The notes under the pieces are model-generated. The model was not told the origin of the DNA. It saw only the letters and a list, made by a program, of their open reading frames with translations, and did no database searches. Positions 3,282 to 17,663 of a stretch of 64,000 nt of DNA are shown here, one piece after another. The stretch spans positions 124,001-188,000 of the forward strand of contig NZ_VFIY01000006.1 in NCBI RefSeq assembly GCF_006385175.1, read 5' to 3'. The translations under genes were made by a program, and so were the position numbers. Source of the stretch: Emcibacter nanhaiensis. GTDB lineage: Bacteria > Pseudomonadota > Alphaproteobacteria > Sphingomonadales > Emcibacteraceae. The first letter of the stretch is position 1, and every line of letters begins with the position of its first letter.

Positions 3282-3938
3282 ATGACGGATATTATTGATA
3301 TTAGTCAGACCCTGGGGCAGGGACTGCCTGTTTGGCCGGGCGATACGGCATTTGAAAGCAAACCAGTCTGGCAAATTGATGGCGACTGTCCTGTGACGGT
3401 GTCAAAACTGACCCTGTCAACACACAGCGGCAGCCACGCGGATGCACCGTGTCACTATGATCCAGAGGGGGCCGATATGGCTGCGGTCGACGTGCAGGCA
3501 TACATAGGGCCTTGTCTGATCGTTGATGTGTCCGGCCAAAAGGGGCCGGTAATGTGGGAACATGTCGCTGAGGATCTGGAGAGTATTTCCGGTCCGCTCG
3601 AGCGGGTTCTGTTTCGCACCTTCCGGACCTTTCCGCATGACCACTGGCGCAGCGATTTTCGTGCGATCGATGCCGGCCTGATTACAGCGCTGGTGGCGCG
3701 GGGCTGTCTGCTGATCGGCACCGATGCGCCGTCGCTGGATCCTGAAGAGTCAAAAGAATTGCCCGCTCACAACGCTGTCCGCGAGGCGGGCATGGCAATA
3801 CTTGAAGGGCTTGTTCTGGATCAGGTCATGCCGGGGACCTACGAATTGATTGCGCCGCCGTTGAAAATTGAGAAGGCAGATGCCAGCCCTGTGCGCGCCT
3901 TGTTAAGAAAGATTGGAAAAAATGAAAACACTGAATGA
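3282..3938 (+). CDS. kynB: Kynurenine formamidase (arylformamidase), cyclase family
   Basis: 218 aa from ATG 3282; the frame stays open upstream but that part overlaps kynA. It hydrolyses N-formylkynurenine to kynurenine and formate. The metal-binding signature of the KynB/cyclase family, THSGSHADAPCHY (HxGxHxDxP), is near residues 46-58. IGTDAPSLDP further on matches the second conserved block. Its position between kynA and kynU, with only 8 bp after kynA and overlap with kynU, fits pathway order. The closest alternative would be another cyclase-family hydrolase, which the context makes unlikely. Confidence 0.93.
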   Translation: MTDIIDISQTLGQGLPVWPGDTAFESKPVWQIDGDCPVTVSKLTLSTHSGSHADAPCHYDPEGADMAAVDVQAYIGPCLIVDVSGQKGPVMWEHVAEDLESISGPLERVLFRTFRTFPHDHWRSDFRAIDAGLITALVARGCLLIGTDAPSLDPEESKELPAHNAVREAGMAILEGLVLDQVMPGTYELIAPPLKIEKADASPVRALLRKIGKNENTE

Positions 3939-7030: not shown

Positions 7031-8119
7031 TCAGTGACGCAGACTGAACAGGCTGATCTGGCGTGCCAGCTGTGTGATATCTTTCTGAACCCGGGCGATA
7101 TCCTTGATCTTGGAAACATTTTCAAGCGTTATGTTCAAGGTAACGGTCTGTTGGATGTTGGCATTGTTGAGCCGGTTGGTCAGGAGCGTGATGTGTTCTC
7201 CACTGGTCTGGTGAATAATTTCCGCCATGGAGTCGGGAACAGAAGGGGCGCTCTCTGCAGCGGTGGCGGAGGATGGTGCCGGGGTGGATGTGACTGTGGC
7301 ACTGGCAACATCGGAATCGGCAACGGATTCCGCAGCGCCGGTTTGGGGCACGGTTGTGGCTGTTGTGGTCGCAGCTGTCGGTGCTGCATCATTCGTTGTA
7401 ACAGGGGTCTCGGTGGTGCTGAGCTCGGGGCCGCGTGTTTTTACTTCGTTCAGGGGAAAATCCGCTGATACGGTCTCGGCTTGTGGCGCTTGGTTGCTGG
7501 TTGCGGGGACAACTGATGCAACGGTGGCGGACGCGGCCGGCACGGCTTCCGCAGCGGCGGAATTATCGATGTCATAGCCGGAGTTCCCGCTGAGAGAAAG
7601 GGTGGCGGGCGCCGGATCCATTGCCGAGGCGGACGTATTGCTGGTTTCTGCCGGCGAATCATTGATTGCGGCGTTGGTCTCGGTCTGGATATCCTCGATC
7701 ATGCTGTTGGTCATATTTTGCGCCAGATTCTTGATCTCGCTTCCGAGATGAACAAGGCCGTTTTTAGAATCGAGGGAATAATTGGTGGAGACTTCCAGGA
7801 AGCCATCAATTGTCGTTTTGATGGAAACGCCCACATCTACTTCGAGACCCGCCACGGAGAAGCCGCCCCTTTGCTTCTCGAGCGTTTCATCTTTCAGAGG
7901 AGAAAGGTCACCGAAGGCGTCATTATCATTCCCGGCACGGGCTCTCTCGATCCAGTTGATCTGTCCCCCGTTGCCGGTCAGGAGAGCTTCCGGCGACACG
8001 GCGATCAAGGAGATCGAAAGCATCAGGCGCCGGGCAAATTGCCGGCTGATCCCGTGATTGCCGGGTGCAGCTGAGGAATATTGTTCCCTGATCGTAAGTC
8101 TGTGTGTTTTAGACAGCAT
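7031..8119 (-). CDS. Exported Ala/Thr-rich protein of the fap-like locus, function unknown
   Basis: 362 aa. The N-terminus is basic, followed by a hydrophobic stretch (LMLSISLIAVSPEALL, about residues 33-48) that could be a signal peptide or anchor with an over-long leader. Residues 100-150 are mixed helix/strand, 155-290 are low-complexity Ala/Thr/Pro/Ser, and the last 60 residues (NRLNNANIQQTVTLNITL and onward) look amphipathic. It begins 8 bp after the C39 peptidase gene and is last in the minus-strand operon. The position is that of a fap accessory gene, but I do not recognise FapE or FapA in it. Possibly a surface or chaperone-like component. Confidence 0.55.
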   Translation of the reverse strand: MLSKTHRLTIREQYSSAAPGNHGISRQFARRLMLSISLIAVSPEALLTGNGGQINWIERARAGNDNDAFGDLSPLKDETLEKQRGGFSVAGLEVDVGVSIKTTIDGFLEVSTNYSLDSKNGLVHLGSEIKNLAQNMTNSMIEDIQTETNAAINDSPAETSNTSASAMDPAPATLSLSGNSGYDIDNSAAAEAVPAASATVASVVPATSNQAPQAETVSADFPLNEVKTRGPELSTTETPVTTNDAAPTAATTTATTVPQTGAAESVADSDVASATVTSTPAPSSATAAESAPSVPDSMAEIIHQTSGEHITLLTNRLNNANIQQTVTLNITLENVSKIKDIARVQKDITQLARQISLFSLRH

Positions 8120-9170: not shown

Positions 9171-9605
9171 TTACTTGACGAAAATATTGATCAGCATGTT
9201 ACTCTGGAAATTTACGTTGTTTCCGGTGTTGAACATCAGGGTATTTATGCCGCCAATGTCGTTGAGATTGAGGTCCTGGATCTTCCCGGTTTCCACATTG
9301 CCGTCGACGCTGTTGCCGATCAGGGATGAGGAATTGGTTGCCAGATTGATCCCGACATCACCGAACGAAGTCTCCGTGCCTCCGCTATATTGTGACATTT
9401 CCCCGGGCGATATGCTTTGCCATCCGGAAAATTCATCCTGCTGAAGGGATGAGTCATTCATGGCTGTAGTTCCGGCGGCTTCCTTGTCATTTTCATCTTG
9501 GGCCCAACTGTGGCATTGAAAACTGCAGGTCAGGATGCTGCCGATCAACAGTGCGACCAGGCGAGGCCGCGCAATGATCATTTTTCTTTCGAACACAAAA
9601 GCCAT
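9171..9605 (-). CDS. Small secreted protein of the fap-like locus, shares C-terminal domain with the Asp-rich repeat protein
   Basis: 144 aa from ATG 9605. A signal peptide fits residues 1-35 (hydrophobic LVALLIGSILTC, then a CHSWA/Q cleavage site). Residues 36-80 are polar. Residues 82-144 contain GDVGINLATNSSSLIGN, TGKIQDLNLNDIGGI and NTGNN, which line up with residues 279-350 of the neighbouring repeat protein. Asn/Gln/Gly-rich strands like these are a feature of Fap and curli-type subunits. It lies downstream of the repeat protein, separated by a strong hairpin. A role as minor subunit or nucleator is inferred. Confidence 0.65.
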   Translation of the reverse strand: MAFVFERKMIIARPRLVALLIGSILTCSFQCHSWAQDENDKEAAGTTAMNDSSLQQDEFSGWQSISPGEMSQYSGGTETSFGDVGINLATNSSSLIGNSVDGNVETGKIQDLNLNDIGGINTLMFNTGNNVNFQSNMLINIFVK

Positions 9606-9643
9606 TACCTTAACCTCAATTTTGGTTGTTGTGGGAAGAGGAG

Positions 9644-9672
9644 TCATATCAGCGGACTGGCCGCTGATATGA
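9644..9672. other. Perfect 12-bp intercistronic hairpin
   Basis: TCATATCAGCGG (9644-9655) pairs exactly with CCGCTGATATGA (9661-9672) around a 5-nt loop, between the Asp-rich repeat gene and the small secreted-protein gene. There is no T-run on either side. It looks like an mRNA-stabilising or partial-termination element setting different levels of the two products. Confidence 0.7.
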
Positions 9673-9711
9673 TTTGGGTTTACGGATGCACCTTCACTGT
9701 CGCTGCAGTGA

Positions 9712-10779
9712 TTAGTTGGTGGTGCTGCTTCCCATATCCACCTTGGCACTGATGGAAATATTGTTGGTCTGTGAAGCGACACCCGTGTTCTGGTTGATCT
9801 GGGTAATGCCCCGGGCATTTGAGATGCTGGTCTCGGAAATATCACCGGTTGTCAGGGTGACCTCCGCTTTCCGGGCCGGATCATAGACCAGATAGTTGCC
9901 GGATACAGAACTGGACAAGGCGTTCAAATTCACAGCAACGTCACCCATGGTGATGTCCAGGTCTAATCCGTCGTCATCACTATTGTCGGTATAGCTGTTG
10001 TCAATGTTGCCGTCATTGTCAATGCCATCATCATCGCTGTTGTCGTCGGTGGACATGGCAAAGTTGTGGCTCTTGTCGATGGTGCCGTCATTGTCGAAAC
10101 CATCATCGTCGCTGTTGTCATCTTTTGAGTAAGATTTCGTGTTGCTGTTGTCGATGGTGCCGTCATTGTCAAAGCCATCATCATCGCTGTTGTCGTCGGT
10201 GTTGCCAATGTTCACCGGCGCATCAATGTCGTTTACGTCGTCATCGCTGTTGTCATCTTTTGCATAAGATTTCGTGTAGCTGTTGTCGATGGTGCCGTCA
10301 TTGTCAAGGCCATCATCATCGCTGTTGTCGTCGGTTGACATGGCGAAGTTGTGGCTCTTGTCGATGGTGCCGTCATTGTCAAGACCGTCATCGTCGCTGT
10401 TATCGTCGGTTGTTTCGGTCTTGGTGTAGGTCTTGGTGTAGCTGTTGTCGACAGTGCCGTCATTGTCAAAACCGTCGTCGTCGCTGTTGTCATCAGTTGT
10501 CGATGAATTGTTGGCCACGTTGTCCAAATCCAGTTTGTCTGTATCTGAACTGTTGCCGCCATCACCGGACTGGGATCCCAGTGCGGACGCGTTGGTGCCC
10601 GCTGACTGGCCATCATCCACGGCGTTAGCGCCCGCTGCCTGGTTGTTGCCGCCGGTGGTTGCCGCTTGTGATGATTCATCGGCATCAGAGTTCTGTTCGG
10701 GTTCGGCATATGCAATATTAGCCAAGCCTATGATACAGGCGATGGCAGAAATGCTGCCCAATAGTTTCAGTCTGTTCAT
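9712..10779 (-). CDS. Secreted Asp-rich repeat protein, candidate fibre or matrix subunit
   Basis: 355 aa from ATG 10779, with GGAG well placed upstream. Signal peptide residues 1-25 (cleavage NIAYA/EPEQ). Residues 26-94 are low-complexity Ala/Gly/Ser/Asn. Residues 95-275 hold eight repeats of DDNSDDDGxDNDGTIDNS type with Tyr/Thr/Lys or KSHNFAMS spacers. The NSDDDG core resembles DxDxDG calcium loops as in thrombospondin type 3 repeats. The C-terminal domain (279-350: GDVAVNLNALSSSVSGN, then INQNTG) is shared with the 144-aa neighbour. Calcium binding and extracellular location are inferred. The sequence is not recognisably FapC but holds its operon position. Confidence 0.75.
   Translation of the reverse strand: MNRLKLLGSISAIACIIGLANIAYAEPEQNSDADESSQAATTGGNNQAAGANAVDDGQSAGTNASALGSQSGDGGNSSDTDKLDLDNVANNSSTTDDNSDDDGFDNDGTVDNSYTKTYTKTETTDDNSDDDGLDNDGTIDKSHNFAMSTDDNSDDDGLDNDGTIDNSYTKSYAKDDNSDDDVNDIDAPVNIGNTDDNSDDDGFDNDGTIDNSNTKSYSKDDNSDDDGFDNDGTIDKSHNFAMSTDDNSDDDGIDNDGNIDNSYTDNSDDDGLDLDITMGDVAVNLNALSSSVSGNYLVYDPARKAEVTLTTGDISETSISNARGITQINQNTGVASQTNNISISAKVDMGSSTTN
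9955..10497 (-). repeat. Eight-copy Asp-rich coding repeat array
   Basis: Eight copies of a DDNSDDDG core repeat within the secreted protein. Copies 2-3 and 6-7 share a longer unit with the KSHNFAMS spacer, pointing to segmental duplication. Copy 4 is degenerate and copy 8 truncated. DNA copies are very similar, so recombination and assembly collapse are possible here. Confidence 0.9.
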
Positions 10780-10880: not shown

Positions 10881-10896
10881 AGCAACAAGTATGCCA
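10881..10896 (-). promoter_or_regulatory. Sigma-54 (-24/-12) promoter for the Asp-rich repeat gene and downstream operon
   Basis: On the minus strand the site reads TGGCATACTTGTTGCT, against the consensus TGGCACG-N4-TTGCW. The invariant GG and GC are correctly spaced by 10 bp. Transcription would start near 10869, about 90 nt upstream of ATG 10779. A sigma-54 activator gene lies 2 kb upstream in the same locus, which supports the assignment. Confidence 0.75.
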
Positions 10897-11407: not shown

Positions 11408-12736
11408 TCATTCAAACAGCATGACCGAGAACGGCATGCGCAGAGTGAATTCCACATCCGGAGAATCGTCGGTTACCCCTACAGCCACATTCATGCTCAG
11501 GCCGGTACGATCGCCAAGCCCCAGGGACATGCCGAGCAACAATGAACCAACCTGGAAATCCCGGGAATTTGTGAAATCTCCGTTGATTTCCGTTTCGGTA
11601 CCAAAGATATAATTATGCTGGTAACCGAAACTCATGGACATGGTTTCGTTGAGGGCAAACCCCACGCCGAAGTTGCCGGTAATGGAATCCCCGGGGTCAA
11701 TATGACCGATCAGGGTGTTGCCACTCTGATAATTAACATCACGCCCCATGTTCCAGACATAACCAAAGTTTGTGAAGAACACAGCCGGGTCGGCCTGGTA
11801 GATCATGGTCAGGCTGGGTTCAAGACTCCAGAAGCCTGAACCGGTAGCCAGTTCGGTTTCAAGGCCGTCTTCGTCCCGGCTGACATCGAAAGGCCCGGTG
11901 CCGGTGGTGGACTTGGCGCGCATATTGGCAATAAAGTAGGGCCAGTTGTCATGGCCGTTGTTGAGCTGGTACTGCAGGCCGAACTCAATATCGCCCAGTC
12001 CCTTGCCGGTAAGGTCCTGTAAGGTGGTAGAACTGCCGTCATTGTCATTCTGCTCGCTGACAATCGTCGACTCCACCCGGTCATCGCGATAAATCAGCGG
12101 CACCTTGGCAGAGAGTTCGAGCCGGTTGGTCAGCCCGTATCGGAAACCGAACTGGCCGGAGACATAGTTGCGGCTGGTTTCTGTTGCCTCAATAACCCCG
12201 ATCAGAACAGAATCGACAAACTCAACCCCCTGGAAAAAGAAGCGATTGCTGGAGGTATGGGAAGCTGACAGGGTTGGCTCTATGGTCAGTTGTCCTTTTG
12301 GTGTCAATACCCCGCCGACATCGGCAATGACGGTAATTTCCTGTTGCGGCCGTGACTCCTCAGGTGGTCGTGTGGCGGCGTCTGCCGGGGCCGCTTCCAC
12401 ATTGTTGGCTGTGGCCGTTTGTCGGGCGGTACTGCTTTGTTTCTCGACAGTCTGGGGCTGTTCCTGCGGGGCCTGCTGCGCGGGAGGTTGTTCCGCGCGG
12501 GCCTGTTCGCCGGTTGACTGGCCGGCCAATTGGTCGAGGCGTTGTTTTTGAAGTTGCAGTTCCCTCTGTTGCTGTTCAAGAAGGCGTGCCTGCGCCTGGA
12601 TCTGTTGTGCCTGGGATTCCAGGATTTTTCTCAGTTCAGCAATGTCGGTCTGCTGGGTTTCCTGAGCCATGCCGGCTTGTGCCAGCACACCGCTGAAAAT
12701 GACGGCTATACCCGTCATGGAATTCCGGCTATTCAT
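11408..12736 (-). CDS. Coiled-coil plus beta-barrel outer-membrane protein (FapF-like transporter)
   Basis: 442 aa from ATG 12736, one base after the upstream gene's stop, with GGGGAG as ribosome site. Signal peptide residues 1-25 (ending AQAGMAQ). A Gln-rich coiled coil (about 30-75), a Pro/Ala/Gln linker to about 130, then roughly 300 residues of alternating amphipathic strands of the MetA-pathway phenol-degradation porin type. Pseudomonas FapF has the same plan: a coiled-coil plug and a 12-stranded barrel that secretes amyloid subunits. Export of the neighbouring repeat proteins is inferred. A plain solute porin is the alternative. Confidence 0.78.
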   Translation of the reverse strand: MNSRNSMTGIAVIFSGVLAQAGMAQETQQTDIAELRKILESQAQQIQAQARLLEQQQRELQLQKQRLDQLAGQSTGEQARAEQPPAQQAPQEQPQTVEKQSSTARQTATANNVEAAPADAATRPPEESRPQQEITVIADVGGVLTPKGQLTIEPTLSASHTSSNRFFFQGVEFVDSVLIGVIEATETSRNYVSGQFGFRYGLTNRLELSAKVPLIYRDDRVESTIVSEQNDNDGSSTTLQDLTGKGLGDIEFGLQYQLNNGHDNWPYFIANMRAKSTTGTGPFDVSRDEDGLETELATGSGFWSLEPSLTMIYQADPAVFFTNFGYVWNMGRDVNYQSGNTLIGHIDPGDSITGNFGVGFALNETMSMSFGYQHNYIFGTETEINGDFTNSRDFQVGSLLLGMSLGLGDRTGLSMNVAVGVTDDSPDVEFTLRMPFSVMLFE

Positions 12737-12737
12737 C

Positions 12738-14243
12738 TTACTTCTCCCCTTGTGAGACAGTTTCTCCATTTACAGGTTTCGGAATGTCAAGCCGTTTCAT
12801 CAGGCGATAGAGTGAGACACGGGAAACCTGCAGCTCCTCGGCCGCCTTTGAAATATTGAAGTTGTTACGCACGAGCCTGGCATGAATAAAACGGCGGTCA
12901 AAATCTGCCCGGGCCTCGGCCAGGGAACTTGCCATGTCCCTGACATCCTCCAGGGTTTCCCCCAAACCCAGGTTTTCCGGCTGGATAAAACGGGTTTTGG
13001 CAAGGATGGTCGCCCTGCGTATGGCGTTTATCAGTTCACGCACATTTCCGGGCCAGGCATATTTGTTCATCAGTTCATAGGAAGCGGCCGTGAAAGAAAG
13101 TTTTGGCTTGTTGTAGGTCGTCCTGAATTTCTCAAGATAATGGTCTGCCAGCAGGCGAATATCTTCACAACGTTCCCGCAAGGGAGGGACGTGAAACGAA
13201 AGCACATTCAGACGATAAAAGAGATCTTCCCGAAATTGCCCATTTTCAATGGCATCATACAAATTGACATTGGTGGCAGCGATAATGCGGGCATTGATTT
13301 TAATGTTTTTCAGGCCACCAACCCGCTCAAAGCTCGAGTTCTGGAGAAAACGCAGGAAGCGGCTCTGCAGGTCGATTGGCATGTCACCAATCTCGTCGAG
13401 AAACAAGGTTCCGTTGTCAGCCAGTTCCACTTTGCCGATCTTGCGGCTCAGTGCGCCGGTAAAGGCGCCGACTTCATGACCAAACAGTTCTGATTCAATC
13501 AGGGAGGCGGGAAGGGCGGCACAATTTATCGCCACAAAGGGGCGGTTACGGAATGGTGAATGCTTATGGATGGTCAGCGCAATAGCTTCTTTGCCGGTGC
13601 CGCTTTCACCGGTGATCAGGATGGGACTGTCGACCCGGCTGATACGATTAATTGTGCTGTATATTTTCTGCATCGGCGCGGATGTTCCGATCAGGTGACC
13701 ATAGCCTTTGGCAGTCTGCTTGAGTGGCAGGAGCGGGGAGTTGCGTTCCAATGCAACCAGCCCCTGGATATGGCCGAGACAATAGAGCAAGCGGGATTTG
13801 TCTGCCGGAAGGGAGTGGAAATCATAGATCAATCCCTGACGAAGCAGGTATCCCAGTCTTTCCCACACAACCGGATTCTTGCCGGCAAGGGCGATCAGGC
13901 GTAAATGCGGCCATTTGTTTACGAGACGGGAGAGTTTCTGATCCGAATAGAAGAGCTCGTCACTCTCAGCTTTGGCATCAATGAGGACGGCGGCACACTC
14001 ATCACCCTTGCGGCTCATTTTTTCCAGCTGCTGGACTATATCGTGGAATGACTGGCTGCACACAATATTATAGTCGTGTTCAGCCAACCAGTTGCACAGG
14101 TCAGAGAATTCATGCTTGTGGCGTCTGGAATACAGAATTATCTGGTTTGGAAAAGCTTCCTCGTTTAAACGCTCAAGGGCCTTTCCATTCCCGGTTTGCC
14201 AAAAATTATTTTCTACATTTCTGCTTTTTAGCTCAAGAAACAT
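12738..14243 (-). CDS. Sigma-54-dependent activator with VpsR-like N-terminal domain
   Basis: 501 aa from ATG 14243 (AGAGGGG upstream). Residues 30-165 form a receiver-like domain; the stretch LLRQGLIYDFHSLP and the following LGHIQGLVALER resemble VpsR. Then comes an AAA+ domain with Walker A GESGTGKE (212-219), the sigma-54 contact loop GAFTGA (259-264) and Walker B GTLFLDEIGD. A Fis-type helix-turn-helix closes the C-terminus (NISKAAEELQVSRVSLYRLM). VpsR in Vibrio activates biofilm genes in response to c-di-GMP. By position this protein should drive the -24/-12 promoter at 10881. c-di-GMP sensing here is inference. Confidence 0.88.
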   Translation of the reverse strand: MFLELKSRNVENNFWQTGNGKALERLNEEAFPNQIILYSRRHKHEFSDLCNWLAEHDYNIVCSQSFHDIVQQLEKMSRKGDECAAVLIDAKAESDELFYSDQKLSRLVNKWPHLRLIALAGKNPVVWERLGYLLRQGLIYDFHSLPADKSRLLYCLGHIQGLVALERNSPLLPLKQTAKGYGHLIGTSAPMQKIYSTINRISRVDSPILITGESGTGKEAIALTIHKHSPFRNRPFVAINCAALPASLIESELFGHEVGAFTGALSRKIGKVELADNGTLFLDEIGDMPIDLQSRFLRFLQNSSFERVGGLKNIKINARIIAATNVNLYDAIENGQFREDLFYRLNVLSFHVPPLRERCEDIRLLADHYLEKFRTTYNKPKLSFTAASYELMNKYAWPGNVRELINAIRRATILAKTRFIQPENLGLGETLEDVRDMASSLAEARADFDRRFIHARLVRNNFNISKAAEELQVSRVSLYRLMKRLDIPKPVNGETVSQGEK

Positions 14244-14300
14244 TATACCATCCCCTCTAAGGATTTGGACGCTGTTCCCTGGAACTGCCTTGGGGGTCAC

Positions 14301-14915: not shown

Positions 14916-17663
14916 ATGATTACCGACCTGATCATAACCAAGCTACATCCTCCAGGGAGCCGGGCTGACCGCATTAGCAGGCCCCAGCTGGAAAATCTTT
15001 TTGACCGGGAAGGATTCCGCAAGGTTACGCTGCTGTCTGCCGGTGCCGGGTTTGGTAAAACAACCCTGATGGCAAGCTGGTTTCACAAGATGAAGGCACG
15101 GGGGGTTGCCGCGGCGTGGGTCAGTCTGGACAGCCGGGACCAGGACCTGGGACAGTTCCTGAACTATCTGATTGCGGCCCTGAAAGTCGCCGGGGCGGTG
15201 AAGGGAGACAATGCGGAAAGCATCCTGCAAAACAAACTGGACAACCGCTATTTCGCGGCCCTCGGCGCCCTGATCAATGAGCTTGCCACGGCTCAGCAAG
15301 AGGTTGTGCTGTTCCTTGATGACTATCATCTGGCAGACGGCAGGGAGGTCAGCCAGTTGATGGAGAGCTTTATCAGTCTGGCGCCGGCGGGATTTCATTT
15401 TGTAATTTCCAGCCGAACCAAACCGCAGCTGCCCCTGGCCAGCCTCAAGGTCCAGGACCAGGTGGTTGTGTTGTCCGAGCAGGACCTGAGGTTTTCAGAT
15501 GGTGAAACTGCTGAGTTTCTCAAGGAAATAAAGGGACTGGATATTTCCAGAAATGATCTCGATCATCTTGTCCGTTCCACAGAAGGGTGGGTCGCCGGGT
15601 TGCAATTGATCGCCCTGGCGCTACGGGACAATCTTCTGGAGAAAAATTTCCTGCAACAATTCTCCGGCAGCAGCCGGGACGTCGTCGACTTCCTCACCAC
15701 AAATGTACTGGCCAACCAGCCGCCGCATGTGCGGGAATTCATGCTTGTCACTTCTGTTCTGGAACGGTTTAACGCAGAAATCGCTGAGCAACTGACCGGC
15801 GGGCAGGATGTTCAGGGCACCATCGAATATCTCGAAGACAATAATCTGTTTATCTTTCCCCTGGACCAGAACCGGGGCTGGTATCGGTATCACCAGCTTT
15901 TCAGGGAATTTCTGCTCAGTCAATTGAAACGCAGCCATCGGGACCGGATCCCGGAACTCAAGAGAAAAGCAGCCCAGTGGTTTGCCGATGCCGGATTGAT
16001 CGTCGAGGCTGTGACGCTGGCCCATGAAAGTGGCGATTCAGATTACCTGGCGGAACTGGTGGAAATACACGCCGATACCATCCGGCGCCGCGGTCACATG
16101 CCGCTGATGCTCGACTGGTGCAAGAAGATCCCGGAGGATCTTGCCCGGACCCGTCCCCAAATTCCCATCTACGAGGGATATGCCCTGTTTCATATGAGGC
16201 GTCCGATCGAAGCCGCCGGTGCGGCTTACCGGGTGGAGAAAGCGATTGAGGAGGCGGAAAAGAGGAACCTCTTTTCACCGGAGGAACTTAATATCTGGCG
16301 CCAGGATATCAAGGTGATCAAGACCGGTGTGGCAATTGCAGCGGACGATGTGGTCGAGGCGGAAAAACTGGCCTCGGTGACACTGGAAGTTGATGGCCCC
16401 CAGGCGGGATTCCTGAAGGGGGCCATGAATAACATGCTGGGCTATGCCTGTACCTCGCTGAACAAGTTTGACAAGGCCAGGATGGCGCTGGACAAGGCGC
16501 GCGAAGCCCACACCACAGTCCGATCCGTCTATGGCGTAGTCTATGCCGACTGTTTCACCGGTATTCTGGAAATGGCGCAGGGTAATCTGCGCCGGGCCTA
16601 TGACTGTTTTGTCCATGCCGAACAGACGGTTGCCGGAGACAATCTCCCCAATTCGCCGGCCATCGCTGTCAGCCGTCTTTATCAGGGACTGGCCTTCTAC
16701 GAGTGGGGCAGGCTGGAAGATGCCCTTCGACTGATTACGGAAAATATCGAGCTGGTGGAGGAATGTGGACAGGCCGAGGCGCCGATCATGGGGTATGCGA
16801 TCCTGGCCCGGCTCTACCGGGCGCTCGACCGGCCAGAAGATATCTATGTTCCGCTGGAACAGGCCGCCAGGATTTGCCAGCAGGACAAGCTGCACCGGCT
16901 GCATGTCCTGACCGAATATGACTATATTCAGCAGCTGATCCTGGATGACAGGATTACAGAGGCGCTGGAGAGAGCCCGACGAACCGGTATCGATCTGGCG
17001 TCCCTGGACGAAGATTTCGCAATCGGGGAATGGGACCGGATCAAATGCGTGCGTTCCCTGACCAAGGCCAGACTGCTGATGGCGGCAGGAAACGCCGGAC
17101 AGGCCATATCCCTGCTGCAACATCTCGAGGAACTGGCAAATAAAGTGGGACGCACCCGGCGCCTTCTGGAGATCAGGATATTGCTCGCCCTTGCTCTGGA
17201 TGCTGCAGGGAACAGGGAAGAGGCGCTGGAGTATCTGCGCAGTGCGGTACTGTTGGGCCAGCCGGAAAGATATGTTCGGGCCTTTGCCGATGAAGGTTCT
17301 GCGGTTGCGCCGTTGCTCAGGGCACTTTTACACCGCAACGATATGATTGATCCGTCGGTTGGTGAGTATGTCTCAGAACTGGCAACTGTTTGCGGTCCGG
17401 AGGATCTTGGCCGTTCTCCAATGCTGCCTTCTGCAGTCAAAGCCTCTCCAGTTGATAAACGCTATATCCTGGAACCGCTTAGCGAACGGGAACTTGATGT
17501 GCTTCGCCTGCTGTCCATGGGCTATTCCAACCAGAAAATCGGCAAGGAACTCTCCATTGCCGAGAATACGGTGAAATGGCATATCAAGAATCTGTTCGAG
17601 AAACTCGACGTGAAAAATCGTACCTCCGCCGTTCTGGCAGCACAAGATCTCGAGTTGATCTAG
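14916..17663 (+). CDS. MalT-like LuxR-family ATP-dependent transcriptional regulator
   Basis: 915 aa, full length for the family. The N-terminal NTPase has Walker A SAGAGFGKTT near residue 45 and a Walker B-like VVLFLDDYH near residue 130. A long alpha-helical TPR-like middle follows. The C-terminal LuxR helix-turn-helix (LSERELDVLRLLSMGYSNQKIGKELSIAENTVKWHIKNLF, about 855-895) is complete. Such proteins are activated by a small inducer plus ATP. It is transcribed toward the amidase-deacetylase-receptor-amidohydrolase operon and is its likely activator. The ribosome site is weak. The inducer is unknown. Confidence 0.9.
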   Translation: MITDLIITKLHPPGSRADRISRPQLENLFDREGFRKVTLLSAGAGFGKTTLMASWFHKMKARGVAAAWVSLDSRDQDLGQFLNYLIAALKVAGAVKGDNAESILQNKLDNRYFAALGALINELATAQQEVVLFLDDYHLADGREVSQLMESFISLAPAGFHFVISSRTKPQLPLASLKVQDQVVVLSEQDLRFSDGETAEFLKEIKGLDISRNDLDHLVRSTEGWVAGLQLIALALRDNLLEKNFLQQFSGSSRDVVDFLTTNVLANQPPHVREFMLVTSVLERFNAEIAEQLTGGQDVQGTIEYLEDNNLFIFPLDQNRGWYRYHQLFREFLLSQLKRSHRDRIPELKRKAAQWFADAGLIVEAVTLAHESGDSDYLAELVEIHADTIRRRGHMPLMLDWCKKIPEDLARTRPQIPIYEGYALFHMRRPIEAAGAAYRVEKAIEEAEKRNLFSPEELNIWRQDIKVIKTGVAIAADDVVEAEKLASVTLEVDGPQAGFLKGAMNNMLGYACTSLNKFDKARMALDKAREAHTTVRSVYGVVYADCFTGILEMAQGNLRRAYDCFVHAEQTVAGDNLPNSPAIAVSRLYQGLAFYEWGRLEDALRLITENIELVEECGQAEAPIMGYAILARLYRALDRPEDIYVPLEQAARICQQDKLHRLHVLTEYDYIQQLILDDRITEALERARRTGIDLASLDEDFAIGEWDRIKCVRSLTKARLLMAAGNAGQAISLLQHLEELANKVGRTRRLLEIRILLALALDAAGNREEALEYLRSAVLLGQPERYVRAFADEGSAVAPLLRALLHRNDMIDPSVGEYVSELATVCGPEDLGRSPMLPSAVKASPVDKRYILEPLSERELDVLRLLSMGYSNQKIGKELSIAENTVKWHIKNLFEKLDVKNRTSAVLAAQDLELI

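Follow-up and report, generated by a model that had tools for sequence, protein, structure and literature searches.

Two neighboring genes of Emcibacter nanhaiensis encode secreted proteins that differ in their N-terminal parts but end alike, which raises the question of what kind of system would place the same C-terminal module on both. We addressed this question in a window of 64,000 nucleotides of contig NZ_VFIY01000006.1 (positions are given in window numbering). The two genes belong to a minus-strand series, from position 14300 to 7031, in the order sigma-54 activator, FapF-like barrel, P0001, P0002, FapD-like C39 peptidase and P0005; all features of this cassette given below are on that strand. 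P0001 (355 aa, 9712–10779) is a secreted repeat protein and candidate major subunit, recognized by its repeats, its C-terminal module and, by eye, a signal peptide. P0002 (144 aa, 9171–9605) is a small secreted protein and candidate minor subunit, defined by its family profile. The families of P0001, P0002 and P0005 are referred to as REP, SM and P5, respectively. We believe, with a probability of about 0.6, that the cassette is an export system for a Fap-like fiber, probably an amyloid, that it is sister to Fap, and that its minor proteins are processed in the periplasm by removal of a leader.

P0001 and P0002 Share a C-Terminal Module

A preliminary description of this DNA placed both genes correctly and proposed that their products have a C-terminal domain in common, a proposal that is borne out by family profiles. 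The profile-profile comparison it had suggested as a check was significant: the mature SM proteins (61 rows) matched the REP C-termini (32 rows) over 65 columns (Prob 95.7, E 9.5e-9). A comparison of 90 SM rows with the 81 REP rows kept gave Prob 90.3 and E 1.5e-6 over 60 columns; its score was 34.7, whereas none of 60 controls with shuffled columns scored above 9.3. P0001 and P0002 are homologous over their C-terminal ~65 residues. The module comprises residues 279–350 of P0001 (9730–9945) and 82–144 of P0002 (9174–9362), and the profile alignment reproduced the proposed register, with GDV, NL, SSS, GN, TG.I, GI and NTG in that order. The N-terminal parts differ, as had also been described: that of P0001 is a D/N/S-rich array of ~75 bp units with DDNSDDDG repeats and that of P0002 is a leader.

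The 61-row SM alignment consisted of 60 of 62 non-redundant locus rows plus the window, and the 32-row REP alignment of 31 of 54 locus rows plus the window, excluding Gly-rich rows and rows without a recognizable first half. The REP set omits loci L129, L132, L140 and L185 (two open reading frames [ORFs] in the wrong frame and two ends lacking the module). Homology was decided by the family profiles, since pairwise BLASTP alone would not decide it: P0001 and P0002 aligned over 19 residues (277–295 and 80–98; TMGDVAVNLNALSSSVSGN and SFGDVGINLATNSSSLIGN) at E 0.032 in a single comparison, and the other three segments of the pair had E 0.61 or worse. Neither protein matched an entry of Pfam or NCBIfam at E 1 or below, and the 61 members of the SM family produced one stray match in each library.

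P0005 (362 aa, 7031–8119) is a secreted protein encoded in the FapE position, downstream of the C39 gene. Based on its relationship to the P0002 family, it is a predicted third carrier of the final ~30 module residues (residues 306–334, 7118–7204), one that the preliminary description overlooked. The SM and P5 profiles matched over 29 columns (Prob 92.9, E 3.7e-7), with a score of 37.1 against at most 10.7 in shuffles. As a single sequence, P0005 matched the SM model weakly (residues 318–334, E 0.0076) and did not match the REP module model. The direct comparison of P5 with REP was not significant (E 0.098; E 0.007 for a shorter cut) and one of 60 shuffles, an outlier of 128, exceeded the real score; the link among the three proteins therefore rests on SM. 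A comparison of the mature N-termini of P5 and FapE reached E 0.022 only, with a shuffle outlier of 130. Because of these two outliers we claim neither a P5–REP nor a P5–FapE relation.

Similarity of the Module to the Terminal FapB Repeat

The last ~35 residues of the module, which in P0001 correspond to a unit at residues 314–351, resemble the terminal repeat of FapB. Against 17 FapB rows the E-values were 2.4e-4 for REP and 7.7e-5 for SM, and the scores (20.4 and 22.1) compare with shuffle maxima of 11.2 and 15.5, none of 60 shuffles being as high either way. These 17 rows are what is left of 19 after removal of L244 (wrong frame) and L243 (FapC-like); with these two poor rows included the E-values were 4e-4 and 1.5e-4. 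Full-length FapB matched the modules weakly (E 0.038 for REP, 0.0053 for SM and 0.71 for P5). The consensus of FapB repeat 3 published in a section of PMC12392863, G-hyd-hyd-Q-hyd-N-Q-x-a-G-g-N-x-N, is close to GITQINQNTGVASQTN in the window.

The module can also be tandem. Models built without loci L078 and L080 found 24 copies (SM model) or 4 copies (REP model) in the REP protein of L080 and 9 or 4 copies in that of L078. Both are giant repeat proteins in which QQNNG units of this module stand in tandem. That of L080 (12004–17982, minus strand) has an open frame of 1992 aa, which the end of the locus may truncate, and that of L078 (3299–5815, plus strand) has 838 aa. Based on the likeness to the FapB repeat, the closeness to its consensus and these tandem copies, we read the shared module as a putative Fap-type repeat.

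A Conserved Cassette with a Separate C39 Peptidase Clade

P0004 (8128–9099) is a FapD-like, stand-alone C39 peptidase with, by eye, an N-terminal hydrophobic stretch. Its sole Pfam match is Peptidase_C39 (E 1.3e-20), it has no ABC domains, and its residues C151, H235 and D251 are invariant in 11 rows. Its TTG start is uncertain; read from the TTG, the protein would begin with a long extension containing HKQAGKQARKQAGKQ repeats, and the real start is probably further in. The best NCBIfam model for P0004 was FapD, at 158.7 bits against a cut-off of 330 (FilB, 125.2 against 475). For P0003, an outer-membrane barrel (11408–12769) with an N-terminal region that looks like a coiled coil by eye, the best model was FapF, at 174.2 bits against a cut-off of 700 (FilC, 62.5 against 630). 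The FapD cut-off alone cannot exclude P0004 from FapD, because the Fap-type FapD of a member of the same order, L045, also scores below it (208.5 bits); the FapF of L045 scores 371.9 bits. In a quick tree of 117 peptidases, the 95 cassette C39 peptidases formed one branch with a Shimodaira-Hasegawa-like approximate likelihood ratio test (SH-aLRT) value of 99, the other branches being 11 FapD (97), 6 FilB (100) and 5 short systems (97). In this tree the cassette peptidases are a clade apart from FapD and FilB.

We scanned species genomes with the C39 alignment and refer to the best 80 loci as the named loci, on which the counts below are based. At least 31 genera are named among them, including Geotalea, Marinobacter, Halomonas, Cupriavidus, Duganella, Colwellia, Methylobacter, Thioalkalivibrio and Brevundimonas, and their range covers Alpha-, Beta- and Gammaproteobacteria and Geobacteraceae. 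An SM protein was found in 78 of the 80 loci (77 by profile, 1 by position). All 80 have a protein in the P5 position, identified by the P5 profile in 72, by the profile of SM or FapE in 6 and by position in 2. Barrels were found in 74 loci and REP proteins in 73 (69 after four were dropped). SM, C39, P5 and barrel occur together in 72 loci, and together with REP in 65; absent parts coincide partly with contig ends. Among 40 genomes searched as relatives, the window's own included, SM was present in 7 and a barrel match in 10. The six genes are kept together in L039–L043; L044 keeps all but the activator and contains two genes of the repeat type. The repeat region of P0001-type proteins varies between lineages, consisting of D/N/S-rich (DNSDNS) or Gly-rich arrays. 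Of the 74 loci with a barrel, 29 have its gene downstream and in the same orientation, giving the order subunits, C39, leader-bearing protein, barrel; it is on the opposite strand in 45 of the 74 and in L041–L043.

The window's sigma-54 enhancer-binding activator (12738–14300; Sigma54_activat, 227 bits) has counterparts of the same broad kind in 45 of the 80 loci, and in 33 of the 54 with full flanks. Of 72 REP genes, 36 are preceded by a -24/-12 site with a score of 10 or more out of 12, as against about 1 of 72 in shuffles. The window's own candidate, TGGCATACTTGTTGCT (10881–10896, two mismatches), lies ahead of the P0001 gene and is by itself not above chance, as the window holds 15 such sites with 13.2 expected. 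Divergent from the activator gene and adjoining it is a gene (14916–17663, plus strand) for a 915-aa protein that by eye resembles a MalT-type LuxR regulator. Genes resembling it sit upstream of Fil genes in L227 and L228 (by eye).

C39-Type Leaders

The consensus of C39 leaders is L-12 xxx E-8 L-7 xxxx G-2 G-1, with positions -4, -7 and -12 in the groove and Gly, Ala or Ser at -1, as set out in parts of PMC6959990 and PMC6363468. The predicted leader ends of P0002, ISPGEMSQYSGG (9378–9413, putative cleavage after GG), and of P0005, LKDETLEKQRGG (7862–7897, putative cleavage before F87), match this consensus. That of P0002 has a hydrophobic residue at -12, E at -8, M at -7, Y at -4 and G at both -2 and -1, while that of P0005 has T at -8 and Q at -4. 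P0002 and P0005, and not P0001, carry a predicted double-glycine-type C39 leader, at which they would be cleaved.

De novo motif searches returned LxxxRG[GR] from 90 SM proteins and, separately, DxELxxhRGGF from 92 P5 proteins; from the REP proteins they returned the hydrophobic stretch of the signal peptide instead. The P5 family has GG at -2/-1 in 90 of 92 members and one of LIVMF at -12 and -7 in fractions of 0.89 and 0.99; the corresponding SM fractions are 0.90 and 0.97, with G at -2 in 78 of 90. A position-specific scoring matrix (PSSM) made from SM exceeded the 99th percentile of shuffled sequences in 72 of 92 P5 and 6 of 9 FapE proteins, 1 of 81 REP, none of 80 C39 and 13 of 74 barrels. 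The P5 matrix did so in all 9 FapE, 2 of 81 REP, none of 80 C39 and 12 of 74 barrels. FapB was marked in 2 of 17 rows by the SM matrix and in none by the P5 matrix. A fixed leader pattern (a regular expression composed after the data had been seen) occurred in 56 of 90 SM, 81 of 92 P5 and 22 of 22 FapE proteins, in no REP (81) or C39 (80) protein and in 13 of 74 barrels, compared with 20 of 2136 other ORFs; among other ORFs carrying a hydrophobic stretch at the N-terminus, it occurred in 4 of 395. It was present in none of 17 FapB and 1 of 5 FapC.

The de novo search missed the leader in nine FapE rows taken alone, and it was the PSSMs built from the other families that located the FapE sites. 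Across 22 FapE rows, which come from 11 genera and L074 and include near-copies, position -12 is L, I or V in all, -8 is E in 19, -7 is L or M in all, -2 is G in all and -1 is R or K in all. The residue at -12 provides an independent check because it lies outside the matrix that placed the sites. Since GG is kept in P5, the FapE leader could be read as a form of this motif in which -1 is Arg or Lys. Portions of PMC5557850 report that FapC secretion is abolished by FapD C38A and that N-terminal peptides are missing from FapE. The substrate of FapD was called undetermined in 2018, and a part of PMC10638192 draws FapC as the FapD target, which differs from our reading. It seems, based on the leader positions, that a dedicated C39 protease would cut bacteriocin-style leaders off minor subunits.

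The barrels themselves may carry such sites. In 22 of 80 barrels (74 from the named loci, 5 of the window type and 1 Pseudomonas-type FapF) a leader matrix exceeded the shuffled 99th percentile in the N-terminal part, 21 times at residues 65–116, before the pore; IDEEILDQQRGG in L178 is an example. The window's barrel and the FapF of L234 did not exceed this percentile. Leader-like sites that end in RGG or RGM and lie at residues 72–106, after the coiled coil and before the pore, were seen in L124, L131, L140, L143, L146 and L158, and further in L173, L178, L186, L189 and L193. A speculation of Rouse and co-workers (PMC5557850) was that FapF might be cleaved by FapD in this region.

Proteins of ~115 aa with a leader-like site precede short C39-barrel pairs in L046 (5655–6005, LDDVQLDALTAG), L087 (2544–2885, LNAEQMDSVAAG) and, by eye, L085 (879–1220, LSATQMDAVAAG). 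In L235, a 114-aa protein encoded ahead of a FapB-like gene (3410–3754, plus strand) has the leader-like EPISDKNLQKVTGR followed by GISI. Proteins in the FapA position may be processed, too, in some genomes.

Relationship to Known Systems

The cassette is similar to Fap in its best models (FapD and FapF), in a module like the terminal FapB repeat, in leader positions that recur in all 22 FapE rows and in the Fap-like gene order of 29 of 74 barrel loci. It differs from Fap in its separate C39 clade, in window proteins without FapB, FapC or FapE model matches, in having one unit in P0001 where Fap subunits have three, in a small subunit that bears a leader and adjoins the C39 gene, and in the sigma-54 activator near 45 of the 80 loci. 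The FapE position downstream of C39 is filled by the leader-bearing P0005, which has no FapE model match, and the window does not follow the fapABCDEF or fapBCDEF order, its barrel gene being upstream of the subunits. In the window's genome neither FapE (at E 0.001) nor FapB (at E 1e-5) had a match. FapB and FapC have three imperfect repeats nearly always, according to sections of PMC12392863 and PMC12822426, with exceptions noted in PMC3792158; the latter also gives the absence of fapA as a common variant.

According to this 2013 survey, Fap was confined to Beta-, Gamma- and Deltaproteobacteria, and the many matches that its FapD and FapF models had outside Fap were taken to mean that both proteins belong to larger families. 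The present cassette is probably part of those larger families. In addition, what appear from model and profile matches to be true Fap-type operons occur in Alphaproteobacteria (L045, L074 and L075), outside the three classes of the survey. L045 has matches to FapB, FapC, FapD, FapE and FapF, all below the curated cut-offs, the genome of L075 has FapB and FapE matches, and L074 and L075 look alike by our own profiles.

The Fil system (a "putative pilus system" in NCBIfam) also combines a C39 peptidase with a barrel and has a leader-like site beside the C39 gene, such as DDAALSGVTGQ in L227 and L228. By eye, a signal peptide is followed by DDAALSGVTGQ/DGISI in L227 and DDSALADVTGQ/AGISI in L228, ahead of the FilB-like gene, and the L228 protein gave a weak P5-profile match (11.7 bits). 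However, FilB is a separate clade, the downstream genes differ, P0004 and P0003 score below the FilB and FilC cut-offs, and no REP or SM match was found in the Fil loci L226–L229 with our own profiles. Plain membership of Fap or Fil was ruled out by the model scores, the C39 clade and the repeat number. The C39 ABC exporters (PCAT1, LahT, ComA) have in common with the cassette the recognition positions -12, -8, -7, -2 and -1, as described in parts of PMC6959990 and PMC6363468, whereas the cassette peptidase stands alone, is apparently periplasmic, and would act on proposed substrates that are apparently Sec-routed fiber proteins. Curli (CsgA/CsgB) offer a conceptual parallel, with Gln/Asn-rich repeats and a nucleator beside a major subunit (PMC12822426, in part).

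The preliminary description suggested that a major and a minor subunit have in common a module for secretion or assembly, as in FapC and FapB. This is supported: the module is shared and C-terminal, it is found repeatedly beside a C39 peptidase like FapD and a barrel like FapF, its end is similar to the last FapB repeat, and it is tandem in the large protein of two relatives. P0002 is not simply a FapB, since it has a predicted C39-type leader.

Proposed Function and Alternatives

Four observations underlie our proposal of a Fap-like fiber export system: the module is homologous, the cassette is conserved, the leaders fit the C39 positions and the C39 peptidases form a separate clade. From these we infer the following course. 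The activator and sigma-54 would switch on the operon, and the secreted parts would all reach the periplasm by Sec. There, the periplasmic C39 peptidase would dock on the helical leader of P0002 and P0005, by way of the hydrophobic residue at -12 and L or M at -7, and cut after GG; uncleaved P0002 and P0005 would be retained from export or assembly. The FapF-like barrel would export P0001, P0002 and P0005. Outside the cell the shared module, as a Fap-type Asn/Gln repeat, would stack, probably as an amyloid, with P0002 and P0005 nucleating or anchoring the fiber and P0001 extending it as the major subunit, and the acidic repeats of P0001 would form a variable outer coat.

A broader proposal, for which we consider the chances evenly balanced, is that the cassette represents a third, broad branch of C39-plus-barrel fiber export beside Fap and Fil. 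Leader-bearing minor subunits would then be the substrates of the periplasmic FapD-type peptidases, namely P0002 and P0005 here, FapE in Pseudomonas Fap (cut after R-G-[RK], before Tyr or Phe) and FilA-type proteins in Fil. In 22 of the 80 barrels, the barrel itself would be a further substrate, cut between its coiled coil and pore, such that one protease would license both cargo and channel.

Several results weigh against the Fap-like reading and its leaders. P0001, P0002 and P0005 had no match to the FapB, FapC and FapE models, and the HHalign Prob against the terminal FapB repeat was only 43 for REP and 62 for SM, a weak relation. P5 did not match that repeat significantly (E 0.43 with 17 rows, 0.56 with 19), the module models found no copy in two FapC proteins tested, and P0001 has one module unit by either model where Fap subunits mostly have three. 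AlphaFold returned no usable model of the two modules, with predicted local distance difference test (pLDDT) values of 56.5 and 50.4. No REP protein was found by the length and position rule in 7 named loci, some of them on short contigs. The SM leader is degenerate at -1 (GG in 32 and GR in 30 of 90), its hydrophobic fraction at -4 is 0.28 with a background of 0.29 (FapE 0.82, P5 0.59), and the P5 PSSM recovers just 34 of 90 SM proteins. The weakest point of the FapE claim is Arg or Lys at -1, a departure from the published Gly, Ala or Ser.

An alternative that we consider unlikely is that the tail serves as a signal for export, recognized by the barrel or by the barrel's coiled coil, in which case any fiber would be formed by the acidic repeats or be non-amyloid. 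In its favor, P0001, P0002 and P0005 were found to have no other part in common, all three carry the tail at their C-terminus or close to it, and the repeat region is free to vary between D/N/S-rich and Gly-rich by lineage. However, the module resembles the FapB amyloid repeat, and the unit is repeated along the protein in L078 and L080 (9 and 24 copies by the SM model, 4 in each by the REP model) and therefore present in more than the one copy that an export signal would need. This alternative may be compatible with another, which we regard as rather improbable, that P0001 forms an acidic surface polymer or adhesin that is not an amyloid, its polyanionic stalk being tethered via P0002 and exported by Fap-type machinery. 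The DDNSDDDG repeats of P0001 and the DNSDNS or Gly-rich arrays elsewhere fit such a polymer, but a module that is Fap-repeat-like and can be tandem speaks against it.

Export of a bacteriocin-like peptide or a ribosomally synthesized and post-translationally modified peptide is very improbable. A C39 peptidase with double-glycine leaders on small secreted proteins would suggest it, and the leader positions do fit C39 bacteriocin leaders (PMC6959990, in part). Yet the mature proteins are Asn/Gln-rich and have their tail in common with a large repeat protein, the precursors have Sec-type N-termini by eye, and the peptidase has a hydrophobic N-terminal stretch (by eye); we rejected this possibility because the C39 protein has no ABC domains and is partnered by a FapF-like barrel. 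Chance similarity of the P0001 and P0002 tails in low-complexity Asn/Ser/Gly-rich sequence, which the pairwise BLAST value of merely 0.032 might have suggested, is refuted by the family profiles (E 9.5e-9) and the column shuffles.

Implications for Fap-Like Systems

The cassette is apparently an undescribed, widespread relative of the export system for the Pseudomonas biofilm amyloid. In the open-access literature, judged by the titles and starts of abstracts among the matches listed, we found no account of the cassette or of a FapE leader; subscription papers and preprints were outside this scope. Published Fap screens require homologs of the FapB/C repeats, as described in sections of PMC12392863 and PMC12822426, so that the cassette extends Fap-like systems beyond the published counts, widening them to Alpha-, Beta- and Gammaproteobacteria and Geobacteraceae. 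For Fap itself, it supplies the comparison that leads to an exact, mutable candidate cleavage site in FapE, the putative target of FapD. More broadly, the cassette would be a sister to Fap in which the protease code is readable, with cleavage, export and amyloid character predicted from sequence.

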